The translations under genes were made by a program, and so were the position numbers. Below the pieces are notes generated by a model, which saw only the letters and a program-made list of their open reading frames with translations, did not search any database and was not told the origin of the DNA. 64,000 nt of DNA from assembly GCA_027484145.1 (NCBI GenBank), contig JAIXUH010000002.1, positions 186,001 to 250,000 of the forward strand, written 5' to 3'. Below, piece by piece: positions 13,049 through 24,973 of this stretch (within the stretch, counting starts at the first letter, position 1; every line of letters begins with the position of its first letter). Origin of the DNA: Rhodobacter sp. Its GTDB lineage: Bacteria; Pseudomonadota; Alphaproteobacteria; Rhodobacterales; Rhodobacteraceae.

Positions 13049-13456
13049 GTGAAGACCGCGTTTTGCCTGCTGGCCCTGCTGCTGGCCCCTAGTCTTGCTG
13101 TTTCCACACCCGCCATGGCGCAAGAGGTTGATTGCGAAGCCGCGCAAACGCAGAACGATCTGAACTGGTGCGCCAAACAGGAATGGTTGATGGCCGATGC
13201 CGACCTGAATGAGGCCTATGCGGCGGCGATGGCCTTCATGGCAGAGATTGACGCGAGCCTTCCTGCGGAAGAGCAGGGCGCCAAAGCGGCCCTGCGCGCG
13301 GCGCAACGGGCCTGGGTCACGGTCCGGGATGAAAGCTGCGCGGCCGAGGGCTACGTCAATTATGGCGGCAGCATGCAGCCTATGGTGATTTACGGCTGTT
13401 CTGCACGCATGTCCGCCGCGCGGGCCGAAGAGCTTTGGAATATGACCGGCGAATGA
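13049..13456 (+). CDS. Secreted LprI-like (DUF1311) protein
   Basis: A 135 aa exported protein. A clear Sec signal peptide (MKTAFCLLALLLAPSLAVS, cleavage after PAMA-QE) precedes a DUF1311/LprI domain with conserved cysteines: VDCEAAQTQNDLNWCA, RDESCAAEG and YGCSARM. The RAAQRAWVTVRDESC core is diagnostic. LprI of mycobacteria inhibits lysozyme; for proteobacterial members the role is mostly unknown. A promoter must lie in the 157 nt shared with divergent pyrC. It is monocistronic, converging on the gene at 13467. Confidence 0.85.
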   Translation: MKTAFCLLALLLAPSLAVSTPAMAQEVDCEAAQTQNDLNWCAKQEWLMADADLNEAYAAAMAFMAEIDASLPAEEQGAKAALRAAQRAWVTVRDESCAAEGYVNYGGSMQPMVIYGCSARMSAARAEELWNMTGE

Positions 13457-13466
13457 TCAACCGGCC

Positions 13467-14471
13467 TTAGCCAGCCATAGTATCGGCATCAGCGGCGCGG
13501 TTGGCCTCTTCCACCGCTTCGGCAGCCAGAAGGTCGGCAAGGCGTTTGCGAAAGCGCGGGGCCTGCAGCCGTTTGGAAACCGAACGGCAGATCATCAACT
13601 CGTGCCGGCGCCGCCCGGCGGTTTCGGCGCGCGACAGCAATTGCCGCAGATAGGGGCCAAAGTTGCGTCTTGCGCGCCACAGACCCGCAAAGGCATTGGC
13701 TGACAGCGTGCCGGACACAGCAGCCTCGACCATCGGCTGGATCAACCCCATATGCGACAGGGCCCAATCCACCCGGCCATCAAGGCGCGGGGTACGCAGA
13801 TGCGTGACGTGTCGGCCACGGAACAGCGCGGCATGCATCGCATCATCCGCCACTTCGGGATCGTGGATGATGAACACCTTGCCCGCCCCTTCGATCATGT
13901 CGGGGGCATAGCCATAGCGGGTGGTGAAATCCAGCCGCCGGGCCTTTTTGGCGCGTCGGTCCCAGCCCGCGACGGCGGGGGACATGGTGGCGCGGGGGCT
14001 GATGGCGATCACCGTCGCGCCGGGTGCGGCCACGGAAAATGCGGCTGCGGCATAGCCTTGCGCCCCGGCCCCCAGAAACACGACCTGATCGAAATCCTCA
14101 AAGAACGCGTCGTCCACCAGCCGGTCAAAATAGCCATAGACCCGCGCATCGCGATACCATGTTTCGCCCTCGGCGATCAGGCACAAGTGCGACCAGCCTT
14201 TTGCCTGCGCAATCTGCAAACCCAGCGGCATCTGGTCGGGCCGTGCGCGGATATCCTCCAGCCGTTCAAAGGTCACGATCAGCGTTGGCTCCTGATCGGA
14301 AAAGAACGCCCAATGGTGCGCGCCAAGCGGTTCGAAATGCCCTGCTTCCTCGCCGATCTGGTCCATCAGACCCAACCATGAAGCGCGGTCCGTCGCAGCA
14401 GAGGCATCGGCAGGGATTGCGTCCATCTGTGGCGAAGTCGGGGTGGTCTGGGGTTCCATCGGGTCCGTCAT
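13467..14471 (-). CDS. Alpha/beta-hydrolase-like pseudoenzyme of a glycan cluster
   Basis: A 334 aa cytosolic protein; start chosen at 14471 (MTDPMEPQTTP) behind CGACAGGAGATT. The central 110-330 region aligns by eye with the C-terminal half of the protein at 18926-20311. Both share GWSHL/GWSML, ETWYRD/WTWYRD, a VVF(L/Y)GA..GYAAAAF elbow, VIAISP and a GxVF..(H/Y)DP strand. Where the other copy has the nucleophile GASMGG, this one has GAGAQG (Ser replaced by Gly at about residue 136). Where the other has LLGHRL it has RLDGRV, so the catalytic His is also absent. I infer a non-catalytic paralogue, perhaps a binding or scaffold protein for surface glycan assembly with the neighbouring glycosyltransferases. 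Homologues may carry an unrelated sulfate-reductase label; no such motif is visible. Confidence 0.7.
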   Translation of the reverse strand: MTDPMEPQTTPTSPQMDAIPADASAATDRASWLGLMDQIGEEAGHFEPLGAHHWAFFSDQEPTLIVTFERLEDIRARPDQMPLGLQIAQAKGWSHLCLIAEGETWYRDARVYGYFDRLVDDAFFEDFDQVVFLGAGAQGYAAAAFSVAAPGATVIAISPRATMSPAVAGWDRRAKKARRLDFTTRYGYAPDMIEGAGKVFIIHDPEVADDAMHAALFRGRHVTHLRTPRLDGRVDWALSHMGLIQPMVEAAVSGTLSANAFAGLWRARRNFGPYLRQLLSRAETAGRRRHELMICRSVSKRLQAPRFRKRLADLLAAEAVEEANRAADADTMAG

Positions 14472-14585
14472 TGCAATCTCCTGTCGAGTCGCGAAAAGGC
14501 GCCTCAAGGAAGCGACATCTGACCGCATTGTCGCGCGGGCGCGCCTTTGGAGCAAGCGGCTGGGACGGGACAGACTGTTTCTTGC

Positions 14586-15581
14586 CTAACCGCGGCGATA
14601 TCGGCGGATAAGCGCCGCCTGATCGGCGGTAAGGCTGCGCGCAGGGGGGGTCATCAGCAGGCGGCCAAACAGCGCGCGCCACGGCTCCTCTGCCATAAGC
14701 GATTGAAAACGCGTATGTCTCCAATCCACCGCAGCGCGGTGCAGGGCCATCAGCGCCGCATCGGCCCGCAACTCGGCAAGGGATGTGCCAAGGTTCAGCG
14801 CCAAGATGCTGTCGTCGGTTTCATCACAAAAGTTGCGGTCACACCAATACGACATGTCAAAGCTGGCCGCCGCCCGGTTGGCACGGCCCCGGTCGCATTT
14901 GACGATATAACTTTCCATCGCGCCCAAGGCATAATGGTTCAGTTGCACCAGCCCATAATGATCGCGCCCCGGTTCGGAAAACAGCCGCTCGGCCAGACCG
15001 GGGTCGTTCCAGACCACCGGGCGCTCTGCCGCGCCGCGCGGGCGATGCACCCCCAGCTTGCGAAAGCGGCCATCGTTACGGAACAGCGTCTTGACCATCA
15101 ACGCACGCCACGGCCAATGCAAAACGCGCGGGGCAGCACGGGTAAAGGTCTGCGTGACAGGGCGGTCGTCAAACGCCACCACCCCGGCATTGCCGAACAT
15201 CCGCCACGTCATCGCAAAGGCATCCACCCCCGGCGCCGCCGCCATCAGCGCGGCAAGGGTGCGGTCGCCCGTATGGATGTTCACAAACTCATCCACATCC
15301 AGCACCATCACCCAATCGGCGGCCCGAAAGGCCGGGTGCTTTTCGGCAGCCTTCAGCGCGGCCCATTGCGGGCCTTCCTCCCACGGGCCGGGGTTGCGCA
15401 CATGGGTCAGCCCCCCCCGCGCGGCCAGATGGTCCAGCATGGCATCGGTGCCATCCTCGCAATCATTGCTGAACACCAGAAAATCGGTGAAGCCGACCGC
15501 CCGGTGATGCGCCAGCCATTCCAGCAGGAACGCGCCCTCGTTCTTCACGCAGGTGATGGCAAGGATGCGCGGGCCGCTCAA
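14586..15581 (-). CDS. Glycosyltransferase family 2-like protein
   Basis: A 331 aa cytosolic glycosyltransferase of the Glyco_tranf_2_4/GT92-like kind. It opens ILAITCVKNEGAFLLEWLAH (the family start motif). It has SNDCEDGTD for nucleotide-sugar binding, the metal-binding DVDEFVNI at residues 95-102, LTWRMFG-like TWRMFGNAG, and LNHYALGAMESYIVK..RGR near residue 245. Its start overlaps the stop of the 761-aa glycosyltransferase by four bases, so the two are translated from one message. Donor and acceptor are unknown; surface polysaccharide or protein glycosylation is the likely process. Confidence 0.85.
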   Translation of the reverse strand: MSGPRILAITCVKNEGAFLLEWLAHHRAVGFTDFLVFSNDCEDGTDAMLDHLAARGGLTHVRNPGPWEEGPQWAALKAAEKHPAFRAADWVMVLDVDEFVNIHTGDRTLAALMAAAPGVDAFAMTWRMFGNAGVVAFDDRPVTQTFTRAAPRVLHWPWRALMVKTLFRNDGRFRKLGVHRPRGAAERPVVWNDPGLAERLFSEPGRDHYGLVQLNHYALGAMESYIVKCDRGRANRAAASFDMSYWCDRNFCDETDDSILALNLGTSLAELRADAALMALHRAAVDWRHTRFQSLMAEEPWRALFGRLLMTPPARSLTADQAALIRRYRRG

Positions 15582-17863
15582 TGCTCGGCCTCGCCCGTGT
15601 GTTCGACCGTGAAGAAAAAGTCGCGCGGCAGGTCCTTCTGGTGCAGGTCATCGGGAATGACGCCCGGCCCCGCACTGAACACGGCCGAGCCGAAGTGGTG
15701 CTGCAACCGGCACAGGCGCTGCATCCGGTCGCCGGTCAACTCGGCATAAAAGTTGCGGTAATTCTCGGTCTGCATCAATTCCGCAATCTTGGCGCGGTGG
15801 CAGGCAACCGAATGTTCATGCGCCGCGCGAATCTCCGGGTCGGCCATCAAGCGGTCATATTCGGCCTGCAGCGCCGGGATCATCCGCTGGATCGACGGGT
15901 CACGATCCACGTTGTGGTTCATGCGGAACCAATAGTTCAGCCCCTGATCGCGGTCGACATGGTTCACGCGGCCACGGTCGCGCTTGACCAGAAAGCTTTC
16001 CGCTGACCGCACCGCATAGTGGTTCAACTGAACCCAGTCATAGCCATAGGTTTCCAGCGTGCTGCGCCAACCGTTACGGAACATCTCTTTCGGCATCGGC
16101 TTGCCCGATCCGTTCAGCCATTTCACCTGATCCCACAGGTCGGGCTTCAGGCCCTTGGGCCGGTGTACGCCCAGTTTCTTGTAGATGTCGATGTTGCGGA
16201 ACAGCGTCTTGAAGCCCCAAGCCTGATGCGGCTTGCGGATGATCTCGGGCGCGCAGGCGGTGAACTGGTCCAGCAGAAAACGGTCGTGATAGGGCGCGAC
16301 ATCATCATTGCCAAAAAGCCGCCATGTCAGGCTGATCATGTTGGCATCACCCATGGCGGCGTAAAGCGCCGCAAGGGTACCATCCCCGATCTTGATGTTG
16401 ATGAATTCATCCACGTCCATGCAGATGCCCCAGCCGCAATTCTGCATCACGGGTTCGGATTCAGCGGCCTGCAAGGCGGCGTGCTGGGGCTTCAACTCGC
16501 CCCCCGGCTGCCATGGGTTGGGGCGGTGTTGCACCAGACCTTTGTCCTGCAACATCATCAGCATCGTATCGGTGCCATCTGTGCAGTCGTTGGTGTAGAT
16601 CAGGAAATCGTCGACCCCGATGGCCCGATGATAGGCCAACCATTCCAATATGAACGGCCCTTCGTTTTTCATTGTGGTGACAATCGCCGTGCGCCCGCCC
16701 AAGGTTGCGGCTTGCGGCGCGGCTTTTGGCAGCGACACCGGCGCGCGCACCGCCACATGGCCGAACAAGCGGGCTGACATATCCAGCAGCACGGGGTCTT
16801 CGATCAGCGATGTTTTGGGTGCAAGTTCCCCCGATTGCCGCCCCGCCACCCGGATCGCCATCGCGCGCAGAAAGGGCACCACGCCCTCATCCCCCGGCTT
16901 GGCATAGGCCACGCGCACCATGCGCCACGTATTGGCCAGCCCCGCCTTTTCAGGCGCCACGCCCCAGCGGGCGATGCCACGGCGCGCATCGAACTGGCGG
17001 CAAATGTGGTCGCCAAAGCGCGCCTCGCCCCCCGCCTTACCCTTCGGGCGCACCCGCCACGGGTAAATCCGCCGCCCGGCCAGCAGGATCACGCCATGCT
17101 CGGCAGCCACGCACAGATCAAAGGCCGGGGGCGCGTCGGGGGCCAGAATATCGGTCACATCCAGCGTCAGGACGGCGCGGGCCTGCGACAGGAAGCGCCA
17201 CTTCACCACTTCAAAGATCAACTGCTCGCCCATCGGCGCGCGCCAAGCGTCGGGGTCAGGCGCCTCCATCCGGTCTTTGCCGGGGGCGTCCGGGGCCAGA
17301 TAGGGGTGGTTTTCCGGCCCCAATCCCGGCTTTCCCATCGCGACAGGGCAATCCAGCACAACCACGGTCAGCGCCAGTGGCTCCAACGCGCGCCCCAAGG
17401 CCGTGCAAAAGGCCTCAGCCCCCTCCGGCAACCGGTTGACGATCAGGGCCGCCTGCAAGCCGTGGTGCAGCACATGATAGGCCAGCCCTTCGGCCACCTG
17501 CGTCGCGGTTTCCTCCAGCCGAAAGGCAAGGATCGTGTTCTTGCCGGCAAACAGGTCCGTTTCGGCGGCCACCGCGTTCACGGCAAAGCGGGTGCCATCG
17601 GCAAGGGCCAACGACCCCACATCGGTGGTTGTCACCATGCAAGACCCTGAAACATCGCGCAATTCTTCGGGTCGCGCGCAACCTGCTGCCCCATCGGGCA
17701 GAAAACTCGACGTCGGCGTGCCCTGACTGAAAAAACTGCGGATGCGGCCGTCTGGCGTGGCTACGCAATCCAGCAGCGCTGCAAGGCCATGGGCATCAAT
17801 GCGCCGTCCGCCCATACGGCGGTGAAGGACTACCGTTGCCGAAGTGTCTGATCTGCCTGCCAT
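15578..17863 (-). CDS. Two-part glycosyltransferase with degenerate N-terminal half
   Basis: A 761 aa protein starting MAGRSDTSATVV at 17863, after a GGGCCAAGGGATA ribosome site. Residues 391-700 form an intact glycosyltransferase closely related to the downstream gene: IVTTMKNEGPFILEWLAYHR, TNDCTDGTD, catalytic DVDEFINI at 483-490, LTWRLFGND and WVQLNHYAVRSAESFLVKRDRG. Residues 100-340 repeat the same outline weakly: EGLAYHVLHHG against EWLAYHRAIG, LDVTDIL (residues 234-240) where DVDEF should be, and WRMVRV near 313. I infer an internal duplication whose first copy lost its metal site. No membrane helices. It is the first gene of this minus-strand glycan operon. Confidence 0.75.
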   Translation of the reverse strand: MAGRSDTSATVVLHRRMGGRRIDAHGLAALLDCVATPDGRIRSFFSQGTPTSSFLPDGAAGCARPEELRDVSGSCMVTTTDVGSLALADGTRFAVNAVAAETDLFAGKNTILAFRLEETATQVAEGLAYHVLHHGLQAALIVNRLPEGAEAFCTALGRALEPLALTVVVLDCPVAMGKPGLGPENHPYLAPDAPGKDRMEAPDPDAWRAPMGEQLIFEVVKWRFLSQARAVLTLDVTDILAPDAPPAFDLCVAAEHGVILLAGRRIYPWRVRPKGKAGGEARFGDHICRQFDARRGIARWGVAPEKAGLANTWRMVRVAYAKPGDEGVVPFLRAMAIRVAGRQSGELAPKTSLIEDPVLLDMSARLFGHVAVRAPVSLPKAAPQAATLGGRTAIVTTMKNEGPFILEWLAYHRAIGVDDFLIYTNDCTDGTDTMLMMLQDKGLVQHRPNPWQPGGELKPQHAALQAAESEPVMQNCGWGICMDVDEFINIKIGDGTLAALYAAMGDANMISLTWRLFGNDDVAPYHDRFLLDQFTACAPEIIRKPHQAWGFKTLFRNIDIYKKLGVHRPKGLKPDLWDQVKWLNGSGKPMPKEMFRNGWRSTLETYGYDWVQLNHYAVRSAESFLVKRDRGRVNHVDRDQGLNYWFRMNHNVDRDPSIQRMIPALQAEYDRLMADPEIRAAHEHSVACHRAKIAELMQTENYRNFYAELTGDRMQRLCRLQHHFGSAVFSAGPGVIPDDLHQKDLPRDFFFTVEHTGEAEH

Positions 17864-17970
17864 TATCCCTTGGCCCACGCGGTCTTTCCGGGGCGGTCTG
17901 GTCTGCCCTTGCCTGCGATTGGCATAGCATGATGGCCATTTCACGGCAAAGCCACCTCAAGACCGATTTT

Positions 17971-18002
17971 GCCGAAAGGTTGGCAAAATGCCCAACTTCG
18001 GC
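17971..18002. repeat. Imperfect inverted repeat between divergent glycosyltransferase genes
   Basis: GCCGAAAGGTTGGCA is followed after about three bases by TGCCCAACTTCGGC, arms of 14-15 bases with one bulge and one mismatch. It lies in the 193-nt divergent promoter region (17864-18056), 55 nt before the plus-strand gene. It could be an operator controlling both directions, or a 5' leader hairpin. Confidence 0.45.
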
Positions 18003-18056
18003 CAGATTGGTTCGCTACAGGCATCAATAACGCAGAACAAAGGCCGGGTGGGCAAG

Positions 18057-18929
18057 ATGGGCAAAGATTATAGTGTTGGTGCGCTGTGGATCGGGGGCAG
18101 CCTCAGCTATCTGGAGCAGTTGTGCCTGAAATCCTTTGTCGATGCTGGTCAGCACATCGTGCTTTACACCTATGAAGGGGTGACCAATGCGCCCGCTGGG
18201 GTGGAACTGGCCGATGCCAGCACCATCCTGCCGCAGACCGGATTTCTGCGCCACGAACGCACTGGCAGCCCTGCGCTACATTCCGATGTGTTCCGCTATC
18301 ACATGCTGGCCAAACACGGTGACATGATCTGGGCTGATACGGATGCCTATTGCGTAAAGCCCTTCACCACGCCGAACGGTCATTTCTACGCGTGGGAATC
18401 TGACACGGGCCTGAACGGTGGCGTGCTTGGCCTGCCGCCCGACAGCGAGACCTTGCGGGCGCTGCTGGCATTTACCACGGATGAGTTTGCCATTCCCGAA
18501 TGGTTCCCCGAGGCCAAACAGGCCGAAATGCGCGCCGCGCGCGAGGCCGGCACCCCGGTTCACGTCTCGGAAATGCCATGGGGTGTCTGGGGGCCTGCCG
18601 CGATCACGCATTACCTCAAGAAAACCGGTGAGGTGCGGTTTGCCCTGCCGCAGGTGGCGCTTTATCCGTTCCACTACAAGGATCGCAACCTGATGCTGCG
18701 CCCCGCCGTCGACATGGCGCAATTCGTGACGGAAGAGACCTTCTCGATCCACTTCTACGGGCGGCGGATGCGGGCGCGGATTCTGGCACGCGAAGAAACC
18801 GGCGTGCCGCGCCCACGCTCAGTGATCGGACGGCTTTTGAAAAAGCACCAGATCGATCCGTCGCTGGCCCCGCTGAAACGCCCTGCGGTGCCGGATGCCG
18901 ACATGATCGAGGAAAGCGAAGCCGCGTGA
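18057..18929 (+). CDS. DXD-motif glycosyltransferase (capsular/Och1-like)
   Basis: A 290 aa glycosyltransferase of the 'sugar-binding region containing DXD motif' family. The start MGKDYSVGALWIGGSLS is taken at 18057. Motifs: YLEQLCLKSFVDAGQHIVLYTY (N-terminal nucleotide-binding strand), SDVFRYHMLAKHGDMIWADTD with the DXD at WADTD, and NGGVLGLP. It shares direction and a 1-4 nt overlap with the next gene, so the pair is co-translated. It diverges from the 761-aa glycosyltransferase. Probably cytosolic and acting on a membrane-bound glycan acceptor; donor unknown. Confidence 0.85.
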   Translation: MGKDYSVGALWIGGSLSYLEQLCLKSFVDAGQHIVLYTYEGVTNAPAGVELADASTILPQTGFLRHERTGSPALHSDVFRYHMLAKHGDMIWADTDAYCVKPFTTPNGHFYAWESDTGLNGGVLGLPPDSETLRALLAFTTDEFAIPEWFPEAKQAEMRAAREAGTPVHVSEMPWGVWGPAAITHYLKKTGEVRFALPQVALYPFHYKDRNLMLRPAVDMAQFVTEETFSIHFYGRRMRARILAREETGVPRPRSVIGRLLKKHQIDPSLAPLKRPAVPDADMIEESEAA

Positions 18930-20311
18930 TGCAAGGCGATGCCCCCGTGCCGCAAAACCTACTGGACAGGCTTGACCTGACCGAGGTCGAAAGCTTTGCC
19001 GATGTGGGTGGAAATGCCTTGGACCTTGCCCTTGCGGTGGCGCAGCGGTGGGATTGCGAAATTGCGCTGATCGACATCGATCCACGTGGCAATTGGTGTG
19101 CCGAGGCGTCGGATTGGGTGGCGCCTTACAGCGCTGCGCTCATTTCGGCCGGGATTTCTGTCGCCCGCATCCGCCGGGTCCATCAGGTGGCCGATCTGGC
19201 GCACTTTGATCTGATCGCCAACCTGTCGATGTTCGGAGATGGCAGCAAGATCAAGCATCTGGAGCCCGTTCTTCAGAAATCACTTCATGCGGCCACGCGC
19301 ATGGTGACCGATATCCGGAAGGGGTCTGGCGCCTATCCATTGCTCAACGGCTTTGGCGCCTGCGAGACCCTTTCCACCACCGAGGTGGCTGGCAAACCCG
19401 TCACGCGCGCCCTGTTCCGGGCCGGGCCGCAGAACGCCGCCGCCCCTGATGAAGGGTCGTGGTCGGCCATCGCGGCGGGCCTTGCCGGGGCGGATGGGTT
19501 TTTTCGCGAAAGCGCCGAGCATTCCTTTCTGTTCGTCAAACGCTCTGACACGCTGGTCGTGACCTTTGACAACCTTGATATCGCCATGACCAAGCGTGAG
19601 GATCGCCGCCCATGGGGCTTTTCCTTCATCGAAAAGCAGGGCTGGTCCATGCTGGGCGTCATGGCAAACGGCTGGACATGGTATCGCGACCCGTGGGTCT
19701 GGAAGCAGTTTGACCAGTTGCGCGACGCTGGCTTTTTCGCGCAGTTCCGGCGTGTTGTGTTTTACGGCGCCTCGATGGGCGGCTATGCGGCGGCGGCCTT
19801 TGTGGCGGCTTGCCCGGGCGCGGATGTGGTGGCCATTTCGCCGCAGTCCACCTTGGACAAGACCCTTGTCCCATGGGAAACCCGCTATCACACGGCTTGG
19901 GGCCGCGATTTTTCCGGCCATTACGGCGACGCGGCCCATACCAGCGCCGCCGCAGGCCGGGTGTTCCTGCTCTATGACCCCTACGAGCCTTTGGACAGCG
20001 GCCATGCCAAGCGCTTTGCCGGGGCCAATGTCACCAAATTGCGTGCGCCGCTCTTGGGCCACCGTCTGGGGTCGTCCTTGCAGCAGATGGGCATTCTCGC
20101 CCCCATCACCCTTGCTGCGCTGAACGGCACGCTGACCGAGGCCGAGTTTTATCGCACCCTGCGCGCCCGCAAGACATTCGCCCGTTATCAGCGTGAGTTG
20201 TTCAAGCGCGCGCTGGATCGCGGCCGCCCCGGTCTTGCCCGCAAACTGGGACGCTGGGTGCTGACACGTGGCGACAACCGATATATCCGGCAAGGCATGC
20301 TGTCGCTTTAG
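18926..20311 (+). CDS. Methyltransferase-like / alpha-beta hydrolase fusion protein
   Basis: A 461 aa protein. It starts at GTG 18926 or the adjacent ATG 18929, both overlapping the upstream stop. Residues 1-165 resemble a Rossmann methyltransferase: VESFADVGGNALDLALA (motif I), LIDIDPRGN (motif II acid) and HFDLIANLSMFG (motif IV position). Residues 190-455 are related to the protein at 13467-14471 and keep what looks like a full triad: nucleophile Ser283 in VVFYGASMGGYAAAAF, an Asp in LLYDPYEPLD and His in LLGHRLG. The fusion of a methyl-transfer-like and an esterase-like domain beside glycosyltransferases suggests decoration or trimming of a glycan, but no substrate can be named. I know of no characterised protein with this layout. 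Confidence 0.65.
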   Translation: MMQGDAPVPQNLLDRLDLTEVESFADVGGNALDLALAVAQRWDCEIALIDIDPRGNWCAEASDWVAPYSAALISAGISVARIRRVHQVADLAHFDLIANLSMFGDGSKIKHLEPVLQKSLHAATRMVTDIRKGSGAYPLLNGFGACETLSTTEVAGKPVTRALFRAGPQNAAAPDEGSWSAIAAGLAGADGFFRESAEHSFLFVKRSDTLVVTFDNLDIAMTKREDRRPWGFSFIEKQGWSMLGVMANGWTWYRDPWVWKQFDQLRDAGFFAQFRRVVFYGASMGGYAAAAFVAACPGADVVAISPQSTLDKTLVPWETRYHTAWGRDFSGHYGDAAHTSAAAGRVFLLYDPYEPLDSGHAKRFAGANVTKLRAPLLGHRLGSSLQQMGILAPITLAALNGTLTEAEFYRTLRARKTFARYQRELFKRALDRGRPGLARKLGRWVLTRGDNRYIRQGMLSL

Positions 20312-22831: not shown

Positions 22832-24973
22832 ATGAAAAGACTGCTCTCCACAACCGCCGCCTTGTCGCTGGCATTGGCCCCGGTTCAGCCTTGGCCGCTG
22901 ATGGCCCAGACCCTGGCCGAGGATGGCTCCATCCTCGCCGATGACGGCACAGTCCTGTGCACCCCAACCGCCGAGGTGCCCTGCGATATCGACGCAATCA
23001 TGGCTGCCATGAAGGAAGCCGCTGCTGCCGCCGAAGCGGAAGCCGCCGCCGCCGCCGAAGCTGAAGCCGCCGCCGCCGCCGAAGCTGAAGCCGCCGCCGC
23101 CGCCGAAGCTGAAGCCGCCGCCGCCGCCGAAGCTGAAGCCGCTGCTGCCGCCGAAGCTGAAGCCGCCGTCGCTGCCGAAGCAGAGGCGCAGAAAGCTGCC
23201 GAGGATGCCATTGCCGCTCAGGCAGAGGCAGAGGCAAAGGCCGCCGCTGATGCCGAGGCTGCTGCCGCCGCCGAGGCGCAAAAGGCTGCCGAGGCTGCAG
23301 CACAAGAGGCCGCCGCAGCGGATGAGGCCGCAAAGGCTGCCGCTGACGAAGCGGCTAAACTGGCTGCAGACGAGGCCGCAAAGGCTGCTGCCGCCGCCGA
23401 CGAGGCCGCGAAAACCGCAGCGGATGAGGCCGCAAAGCTGGCCGAGGAAGAAGCCGCGAAAACTGCTGCCGACGAGGCCGCAAAGCTAGCCGAAGACGAG
23501 GCCGCGAAAACTGCTGCGGATGAGGCCGCAAAGCTGGCCGAGGAAGAAGCCGCGAAAACCGCAGTGGATGAGGCCGCAAAGCTAGCCGAAGACGAGGCCG
23601 CGAAAACCGCAGCGGATGAGGCCGCAAAGCTAGCCGAAGACGAGGCCGCGAAGACTGCTGCGGATGAGGCCGCAAAACTGGCCGAAGAAGAGGCTGCGAA
23701 GACTGCCGCCGAAGAGGCCGCCAAGGCCGTTGAAACCACGGACCCGGATACGACGACAGCCTCCACTGATGTGCCGGCTCCCGAACAGGTGCCCGTCGAG
23801 GTGCCTGTTGTCAGTGCCGAAGAAACCCAGTCCCTGACCGAGATTCTGTCCGATCCGGGCTCCATCACCGAGACGAACCTTGCCGCCGCTGCGGCCGCCG
23901 CCGCCGCCGACAGCACCGCAGACCCAGCGAAATCCGTCGAATCTGACAGCGAATTGACGGTGCCCGACCTGCCCAAGCCTGACGTGACCACTGTGACGGT
24001 CACGGAGACCGACACGCGCTCATCGGACGAGGAATTTACCGCTGCCCCCACGGCAGTGGGTGAAAACAAGAAATCCGGCCTGTCGGATCTGGAAAAGGTT
24101 GGGCTTCTGGCCCTTGGGGCGCTGGTTGTCGGGGCCATTCTGAAAGACGGGCGTGAGGTTGTGTCCAACAGTGGTGACCGCGTGGTGGTGAAAGAGCCGG
24201 ATGGACGCTACATCGTCTACAAGGATGACGATACCTTGCTGCGCCGCCCCGGTGCCACCGTGCGGACCGAAACCTATGCCGACGGGTCAACCCTTTCGAC
24301 GGTGGACCGCGAGGATGGCACGCAAGTGGTCACAATTCGCGATGCGTCGGGCCGCGTGCTGCGCCGCGCCACCTATGACAGCCGTGGCAACGAGATCATC
24401 CTGATTGATGATCTGGCCCGCGAAGAGGCGATCGACGTCACAACCCTTCCGCGCCCGCGCGCTGATCGGGTCACGATCTCGACCTCGGACAGGGACGCGG
24501 CACTGAAAGCTGCCCTTGCCCGCGCCGAGGTGGAGGAACTGGGCCGCACCTTCAGCCTGCGCCAGATCCGTGAGATCAGGCAGGTGCGGGCGCTTGCCGC
24601 CACCATTGATGTCGACAACATCACCTTCGAATCGGGGTCTGCCGTCATTCGCGCGACCGAGGCGCGCAAACTGGCTGACCTTGGCCGCCTCATGGGGGAT
24701 ATCCTTGATGAAAACGCCGGTGAGGTGTTCCTGATCGAAGGCCACACCGATGCGGTCGGGTCTGCCTCGTCGAACCTGACGTTGTCAGACCGTCGCGCAG
24801 AATCGGTGGCCCTTGCCCTGTCCGAGTATTTCGACATTCCGCCAGAAAACATGGTGGTGCAGGGCTATGGCGAGTCTGACCTGCGCGTCGAAACGCTGTC
24901 GGACGAGGTGTTGAACCGCCGCGTGGCCGTGCGTGTGGTGACCCCGCTGATGCGGTCTGCCGACATGCGCTGA
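22832..24973 (+). CDS. OmpA-family outer-membrane protein with long alanine-rich repeats
   Basis: A 713 aa exported protein with signal peptide MKRLLSTTAALSLALAPVQP. Residues about 55-110 are near-perfect 8-residue repeats (EAEAAAAA, 24-nt unit). Residues about 185-300 are 16-residue repeats alternating DEAAKTAA and DEAAKLAE (48-nt unit), predicted to form a long helix or coiled coil. A Ser/Thr-rich linker and one hydrophobic helix (KVGLLALGALVVGAIL) follow, then a beta-rich tract. The C-terminal OmpA peptidoglycan-binding domain includes FESGSAVI, IEGHTDAVGS, LSDRRAESVALAL and GYGESDL. It probably anchors the outer membrane to peptidoglycan across a variable spacer. Placement inside a molybdenum-maturation cluster is unexplained. 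Confidence 0.88.
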   Translation: MKRLLSTTAALSLALAPVQPWPLMAQTLAEDGSILADDGTVLCTPTAEVPCDIDAIMAAMKEAAAAAEAEAAAAAEAEAAAAAEAEAAAAAEAEAAAAAEAEAAAAAEAEAAVAAEAEAQKAAEDAIAAQAEAEAKAAADAEAAAAAEAQKAAEAAAQEAAAADEAAKAAADEAAKLAADEAAKAAAAADEAAKTAADEAAKLAEEEAAKTAADEAAKLAEDEAAKTAADEAAKLAEEEAAKTAVDEAAKLAEDEAAKTAADEAAKLAEDEAAKTAADEAAKLAEEEAAKTAAEEAAKAVETTDPDTTTASTDVPAPEQVPVEVPVVSAEETQSLTEILSDPGSITETNLAAAAAAAAADSTADPAKSVESDSELTVPDLPKPDVTTVTVTETDTRSSDEEFTAAPTAVGENKKSGLSDLEKVGLLALGALVVGAILKDGREVVSNSGDRVVVKEPDGRYIVYKDDDTLLRRPGATVRTETYADGSTLSTVDREDGTQVVTIRDASGRVLRRATYDSRGNEIILIDDLAREEAIDVTTLPRPRADRVTISTSDRDAALKAALARAEVEELGRTFSLRQIREIRQVRALAATIDVDNITFESGSAVIRATEARKLADLGRLMGDILDENAGEVFLIEGHTDAVGSASSNLTLSDRRAESVALALSEYFDIPPENMVVQGYGESDLRVETLSDEVLNRRVAVRVVTPLMRSADMR

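Follow-up and report, generated by a model that had tools for sequence, protein, structure and literature searches.

Why is a sugar-modifying enzyme retained once its catalytic residues are gone? A locus in Rhodobacter sp. offers a way to ask this question. It lies in a 64,000-nucleotide stretch of assembly GCA_027484145.1 (contig JAIXUH010000002.1, positions 186,001 to 250,000; hereafter the window), where five genes, here called A to E, form two divergent units. A preliminary description, made from the sequence alone, had proposed that the products of A and E, a dead and an intact alpha/beta-hydrolase, make up a two-part system for modifying a surface glycan or glycoprotein, together with the glycosyltransferases (GTs) encoded beside them. 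We found that the loss of catalytic residues is fixed in the A family and that A is kept at GT loci lacking a detected intact copy. E is a candidate glycan O-acyltransferase.

The intact and the dead hydrolase paralogues

The products of A and E are indeed related. They share 41% identity over query residues 166-435 (E-value 7.1e-56), and comparison of their profiles gave a probability of 100% (E-value 3.3e-85). E belongs to the alpha/beta-hydrolase superfamily by its predicted fold and by a GxSxG elbow with Ser-Asp-His, and the motifs GASMGG, DPYEPLD and LLGHRL were all present in its sequence. At the aligned places A has GAGAQG and RLDGRV, in which the Ser and the His are lost, while the Asp is retained. 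With its nucleophile and His absent, A falls outside the catalytic members of the superfamily.

This difference holds well beyond the window. Among aligned ORFs (open reading frames) of the A class from the first 111 loci, the Ser was present in 0 of 52, the His in 0 of 51 and the Asp in 50 of 51, whereas 100 of 100 ORFs of the E class had the Ser and the Asp, and 99 of 100 had the His. The count was extended to 207 family domains, in which overlapping loci cause some genes to be counted twice; 120 had Ser-Asp-His, 85 had neither Ser nor His and 2 had Ser-Asp-Gln, the last two (L020 and L135) coming from one genome. Twenty further copies from 19 genomes were either dead (16) or live (4), with none mixed. 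Ser and His were kept in eight of the nine plasmid relatives that were aligned; two more plasmid proteins with hydrolase matches were left out of this alignment. The exception is distant and partial (34% identity over about 170 residues): the C-terminal stretch of a Phaeobacter piscinae plasmid protein annotated as polysaccharide pyruvyl transferase (L165, 6645-8654). It has Gly at the place of the Ser and keeps the His, and if the alignment is right it breaks the strict split into live and dead forms.

A tree was built from 73 representatives, of which 49 were dead and 24 live, after removal of the columns that surround Ser and His of the triad. The live or dead state changes once on this tree (support 83/100; 84% of bootstrap trees), compared with an average of 20.5 changes when states were shuffled. 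The ratio of nonsynonymous to synonymous substitution rates (dN/dS) in eight pairs was 0.083-0.221 for A and 0.083-0.161 for E, values that are rough for the four pairs involving window genes in which dS exceeded 1. The loss of Ser and His in the A family is fixed, and A is a maintained protein under purifying selection.

Purifying selection on A would also fit a protein that is no pseudoenzyme at all and has gained a new activity through other residues; besides the Asp, A has retained WYRD-like residues and, following the Asp, a DxM-H stretch that is invariant. Near the nucleophile elbow, however, A-type proteins share no conserved residue (PCG, MGG, MAG, VQG and AQG all occur there), and we consider a new activity very unlikely.

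Plasmid NZ_CP061939.1, recorded under Bacillus velezensis (L166), carries a family match at 38% identity.

Glycosyltransferase context and the fate of A without E

The grouping of both hydrolase-fold genes with DVDE or DXD glycosyltransferases, as first described, was upheld. B and the C-terminal part of C exceeded the cut-offs of PF01697 (30.3 and 39.8 bits, cut-off 23) and PF13704 (81.8 and 63.5, cut-off 27.5), and DVDE was invariant in the aligned sequences of each (47 of 47 for B, 63 of 63 for the C-terminal half of C). D carries DXD in ADTDAYC. The N-terminal half of C, modelled alone with a predicted local distance difference test score (pLDDT) of 93.8 and a predicted template modelling score (pTM) of 0.92, gave as its best match in the PDB GalS1 (E-value 6.4e-8), which we take to be a plant galactan synthase of the GT92 family. 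On this model it is predicted to be another GT92-like domain, one whose metal motif has changed. Most sequences have DV[T/H/S/C]D there instead of DVDE; at the second D of DXD we counted T 34, H 14, S 6, C 6, P 2 and A 1, with Asp in 0 of 63, the motif being placed by the strand order of the model and not by residue alignment to GalS1. Profile comparison of this half with GTs gave a probability of 4.9, and the GT-like call rests on the model.

Gene order and gene fusions elsewhere provide the strongest evidence that the hydrolase would act on the products of these GTs. A live copy was present in 14 of 20 further loci, and a C- or D-type GT gene lay in the same stretch in all 14. In three genomes a single frame encodes a live hydrolase together with a GT92 domain and one or more D-type GT domains: one D-type domain in L140 (4060-7260, 1067 aa), two in L141 (2835-7085, 1417 aa) and three in L143 (1527-6764, 1746 aa). 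In each of the three a dead copy lies nearby on the opposite strand; L139 likewise holds both live and dead copies. Plasmids also carry fusions of the hydrolase with a GT92-type domain, one from Loktanella (646 aa) and two from Paracoccus (746 and 708 aa), and on one Paracoccus plasmid three GT genes directly precede a hydrolase gene.

The arrangement of C, D and E is itself conserved. A search with E yielded 80 named loci, all those listed being from Alphaproteobacteria and mostly from genera of Rhodobacteraceae, and arrangement was counted in the 60 loci whose upstream sequence reached 7.9 kb or more. D was directly upstream of E in 59 of these and a C orthologue lay upstream on the other strand in 56, while A was also present in 42; the count for B was set aside because the GT domains of B and C cross-match. 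Many of these loci are flanked by pyrC and by downstream MoxR and VWA genes. C-D-E looks like a module joined to an older, pyrC-linked A-B locus.

How widely A occurs without E was apparent from genome surveys. Matches to E were found in 112 of 149 genomes of the bacterial family and C-like matches (E-value <= 1e-40) in 110 of 149. A class-wide sample of 289 genomes gave nine with a match, four of them Rhodobacteraceae and five with weak scores. In all 23 single-match genomes whose triad was inspected the copy was dead and no live copy was detected, although in G055, which is among them, a profile gave a further match with a weak score. Thus A is kept without E. At 20 loci of the A-only type, A stood beside GT92-type genes in every case, with pyrC in 17 and MoxR in 18 of the stretches examined; these loci were drawn from the lists of E and C matches, and their GT neighbours are partly selected for that reason. 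The 64 single-match genomes allow a less selected count: five had no C position listed, and in 41 of the other 59 a C-like match lay on the contig of the family match, no more than 15 kb from it. The dead paralogue A probably serves a GT locus on its own.

These surveys bear on the original proposal of an enzyme and pseudoenzyme acting as two parts of one system. Intact and dead paralogues of one fold, a GT context and a conserved arrangement all stood; the pairing of A with E did not prove obligate. The proposal makes A and E a dedicated pair, as a heteromer or a regulator and its enzyme, on the two arms of one system. It would account for A sharing the divergent cluster at 42 of 60 E loci and for the live and dead copies that share a locus in L139, L140, L141 and L143. 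Full-length E, with its N-terminal domain, was found in 12 of 149 genomes, and 11 of these have a dead copy, none being found in the twelfth, whose assembly is 79% complete. This proportion is no proof of dependence, since family members occur in 112 of the 149 genomes in any case. The dead copy was within 6 kb of E in six of the 11 genomes, on another contig in four and more than 2 Mb away in one, and in the 23 inspected single-match genomes it stands by itself. We therefore regard a dedicated pair as quite unlikely.

A predicted role for E and A

A model of E was predicted with pLDDT 92.5 and pTM 0.67. In a fold search of the PDB, CsaC was at rank 1 (E-value 9.7e-7), antigen 85C came next, and chain B of the Gap123 complex, presumably the Asp2 homologue Gap2, was at rank 8. 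CsaC has a Ser-His-Asp triad and is reported to O-acetylate capsule on the cytosolic side (PMC7501274), and Asp2 O-acetylates N-acetylglucosamine (GlcNAc) via a Ser-Asp-His triad in GxSxG (PMC7948813). The glycans that the two enzymes modify are made on the side of the cytosol (PMC7501274, PMC7948813). E has the same triad and is placed as a putative O-acyltransferase by analogy with these enzymes. No N-terminal hydrophobic stretch was found in A to E (windows in the first 60 residues scored at most 1.19).

We favour, with a probability of about one half, a reading in which a glycan of the cell surface is both assembled and decorated by this cluster, acting from within the cytosol. E would be its glycan O-acyltransferase, and A would assist the GT92-type B and C as a partner without catalysis. 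B and C, together with the DXD-type D, would add sugars to the glycan. We infer acyl transfer over hydrolysis: Ser283 of E would accept the acyl group, for which acetyl-CoA is the likeliest donor and acetyl the likeliest group, and hand it to a sugar hydroxyl, and the N-terminal domain of E may methylate the same glycan. A would have lost both residues, Ser and His, in a single event early in the history of the family, with the fold retained, and we infer for it a physical partnership with the GT92 enzymes, for example in holding the glycan or the enzyme complex. A and B would form the older, pyrC-linked part, to which C, D and E were added in some lineages.

Several results weigh against this proposal. 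The placement of the two domains of E relative to each other is uncertain, as its pTM indicates. The TM-scores of CsaC were 0.31 and 0.53, the latter by target length. The fold search returned 363 PDB matches at E-value <= 0.001, including methyltransferases matched by the N-terminal domain, and its ranking is not decisive; the plain hydrolases 2r11 and 2i3d scored in the range of CsaC. A profile search of PDB sequences found no similarity of E to any solved acyltransferase, and no match to CsaC at E-value <= 10. The methyltransferase reading of the N-terminus comes entirely from fold matches to class I enzymes (6q56, 4isc and 3grz) and from an S-adenosylmethionine (SAM) motif that is partly conserved (aD..G.a and the following acidic residue). 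None of the five genes was identified as a polymerase, flippase or exporter, and 18 of 59 single-match genomes had no GT92-type match within 15 kb.

The plain hydrolases among the PDB matches suit another function for E, that of a glycan esterase (deacylase) removing acyl groups in glycan maturation, with A as a carbohydrate-binding relic. The Ser-Asp-His triad and the fold are common to esterases as well. This function is somewhat unlikely in our view: CsaC is the first fold match, the five proteins have no N-terminal hydrophobic stretch, and sugar-adding enzymes are joined to the live copies by fusion or in an operon, a setting in which the addition of a group fits better than its removal.

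An extension of the O-acyltransferase proposal is possible and is offered tentatively. A may represent a family-wide pseudo-acyltransferase in Rhodobacteraceae, in which catalysis was lost once and GT92 enzymes have since depended on the protein as an obligate subunit without catalysis or as a clamp for the glycan. C would repeat this pattern as a fusion of a degenerate and a live GT92 domain, and lineages gaining the live module would regain O-acylation, with live and dead copies on the same glycan. If the O-acyltransferase proposal is true, E adds to the cytosolic glycan O-acyltransferases a branch with the hydrolase fold, in a major family of environmental bacteria, and A is a long-kept dead paralogue whose role is testable by deletion.

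The methyltransferase-like domain of E was compared with one further group of proteins. In L143 (9842-11377) and six similar proteins a D-type GT carries a fused tail with a weak likeness to Methyltransf_24 (below the cut-off in the single protein scanned). This tail was considered as a relative of the N-terminal domain of E, and the two were not detectably related (hhalign probability 0.5).

Gene layout and comparison with known systems

The five genes occupy the positions first described (Table 1). Shorter starts were chosen for A, C, D and E because they better fit the conserved parts; those of C and D leave the divergent gap that had been noted. The start codon of E overlaps the stop of D (TGATG).

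Table 1. Features of the five-gene cluster (positions in the window; residue numbers of A follow its ORF).
Feature	Position	Strand	Remark
Gene A, dead alpha/beta-hydrolase homologue	13467-14471	-	ORF reaches 14555; likely start ATG 14471
A codon 260, Gly at place of E catalytic His	13776-13778	-	
A codon 232, Asp kept at acid position	13860-13862	-	
A codon 164, Gly at place of E nucleophile Ser	14064-14066	-	
Gene B, GT2_4/GT92-type glycosyltransferase with DVDE	14586-15581	-	4-base overlap with C stop
Gene C, two-domain protein	15578-17863	-	ORF reaches 17944; likely start ATG 17863
C C-terminal GT2_4/GT92 domain, invariant DVDE	15710-16744	-	
C N-terminal half, GT92-like fold as modelled	16700-17842	-	best PDB match GalS1; DVTD replaces DVDE
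Divergent C/D intergenic region	17864-18056		
Gene D, DXD glycosyltransferase	18057-18929	+	weak Gly_transf_sug/Caps_synth likeness; ORF open from 17988; start ATG 18057
Gene E, methyltransferase-like N-terminal domain and live alpha/beta-hydrolase domain	18929-20311	+	ORF from 18926; start ATG 18929
E class I methyltransferase-like domain (residues 12-170)	18959-19435	+	
E alpha/beta-hydrolase domain (residues 171-461)	19436-20308	+	
E Ser283, nucleophile elbow GASMG	19772-19774	+	
E Asp351	19976-19978	+	
E His379	20060-20062	+	

Two other genes of the window were recorded. An LprI-like lysozyme-inhibitor gene (13049-13456) lies between pyrC and A and is present in some related loci, and a long protein with an Ala/Glu-rich repetitive region is encoded at 22832-24973, where antisense frames are also open.

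A live family member on a Thioclava plasmid (L162, 8019-8951) is annotated in RefSeq as 'phosphoadenosine phosphosulfate reductase'. This identity was rejected for the window proteins, as A and E gave no such Pfam or NCBIfam match at E-value <= 1 and the fold is that of an alpha/beta-hydrolase. If our reading is true, it corrects a misleading name of at least one family member. Literature searches by this database name, by the GT92/PF13704 context and by pseudoenzyme or O-acetyltransferase theme found no description of the family, and the Phaeobacter biofilm-plasmid literature yielded no phenotype for a member. The capsule genes tied to the gene transfer agent of Rhodobacter capsulatus (rcc01081-01086 and rcc01932) offered a possible lead. 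Within the literature searched, the locus is undescribed; it is a conserved variation on glycan-modifying enzymes of hydrolase fold, in which a dead paralogue is fixed.

Among known systems, GT92 enzymes such as GalS1 are the closest to B and C: both proteins have a domain above the PF01697 cut-off, and GalS1 is also the best match of the N-terminal half of C. C is unlike them in being tandem, with DV[T/H/S/C]D in its N-terminal copy. With CsaC of Neisseria meningitidis serogroup A, E shares the alpha/beta-hydrolase fold and the Ser-His-Asp triad; CsaC is a soluble enzyme of a capsule gene set (PMC7501274), and E would be a soluble enzyme at a putative surface-glycan locus. E differs in having no detectable sequence similarity to CsaC and in its additional methyltransferase-like domain, and the part of that report available to us mentions no dead paralogue of CsaC, unlike A here (PMC7501274). 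Asp2/Gap2 of the accessory Sec system, which O-acetylates the glycan of a serine-rich repeat adhesin, shares with E the hydrolase fold, the GxSxG motif (GASMG in E) and an association with glycosyltransferases, which for E is predicted from the gene context (PMC7948813). It has no sequence match to E, and in the present locus the dead protein is itself a hydrolase-fold paralogue.

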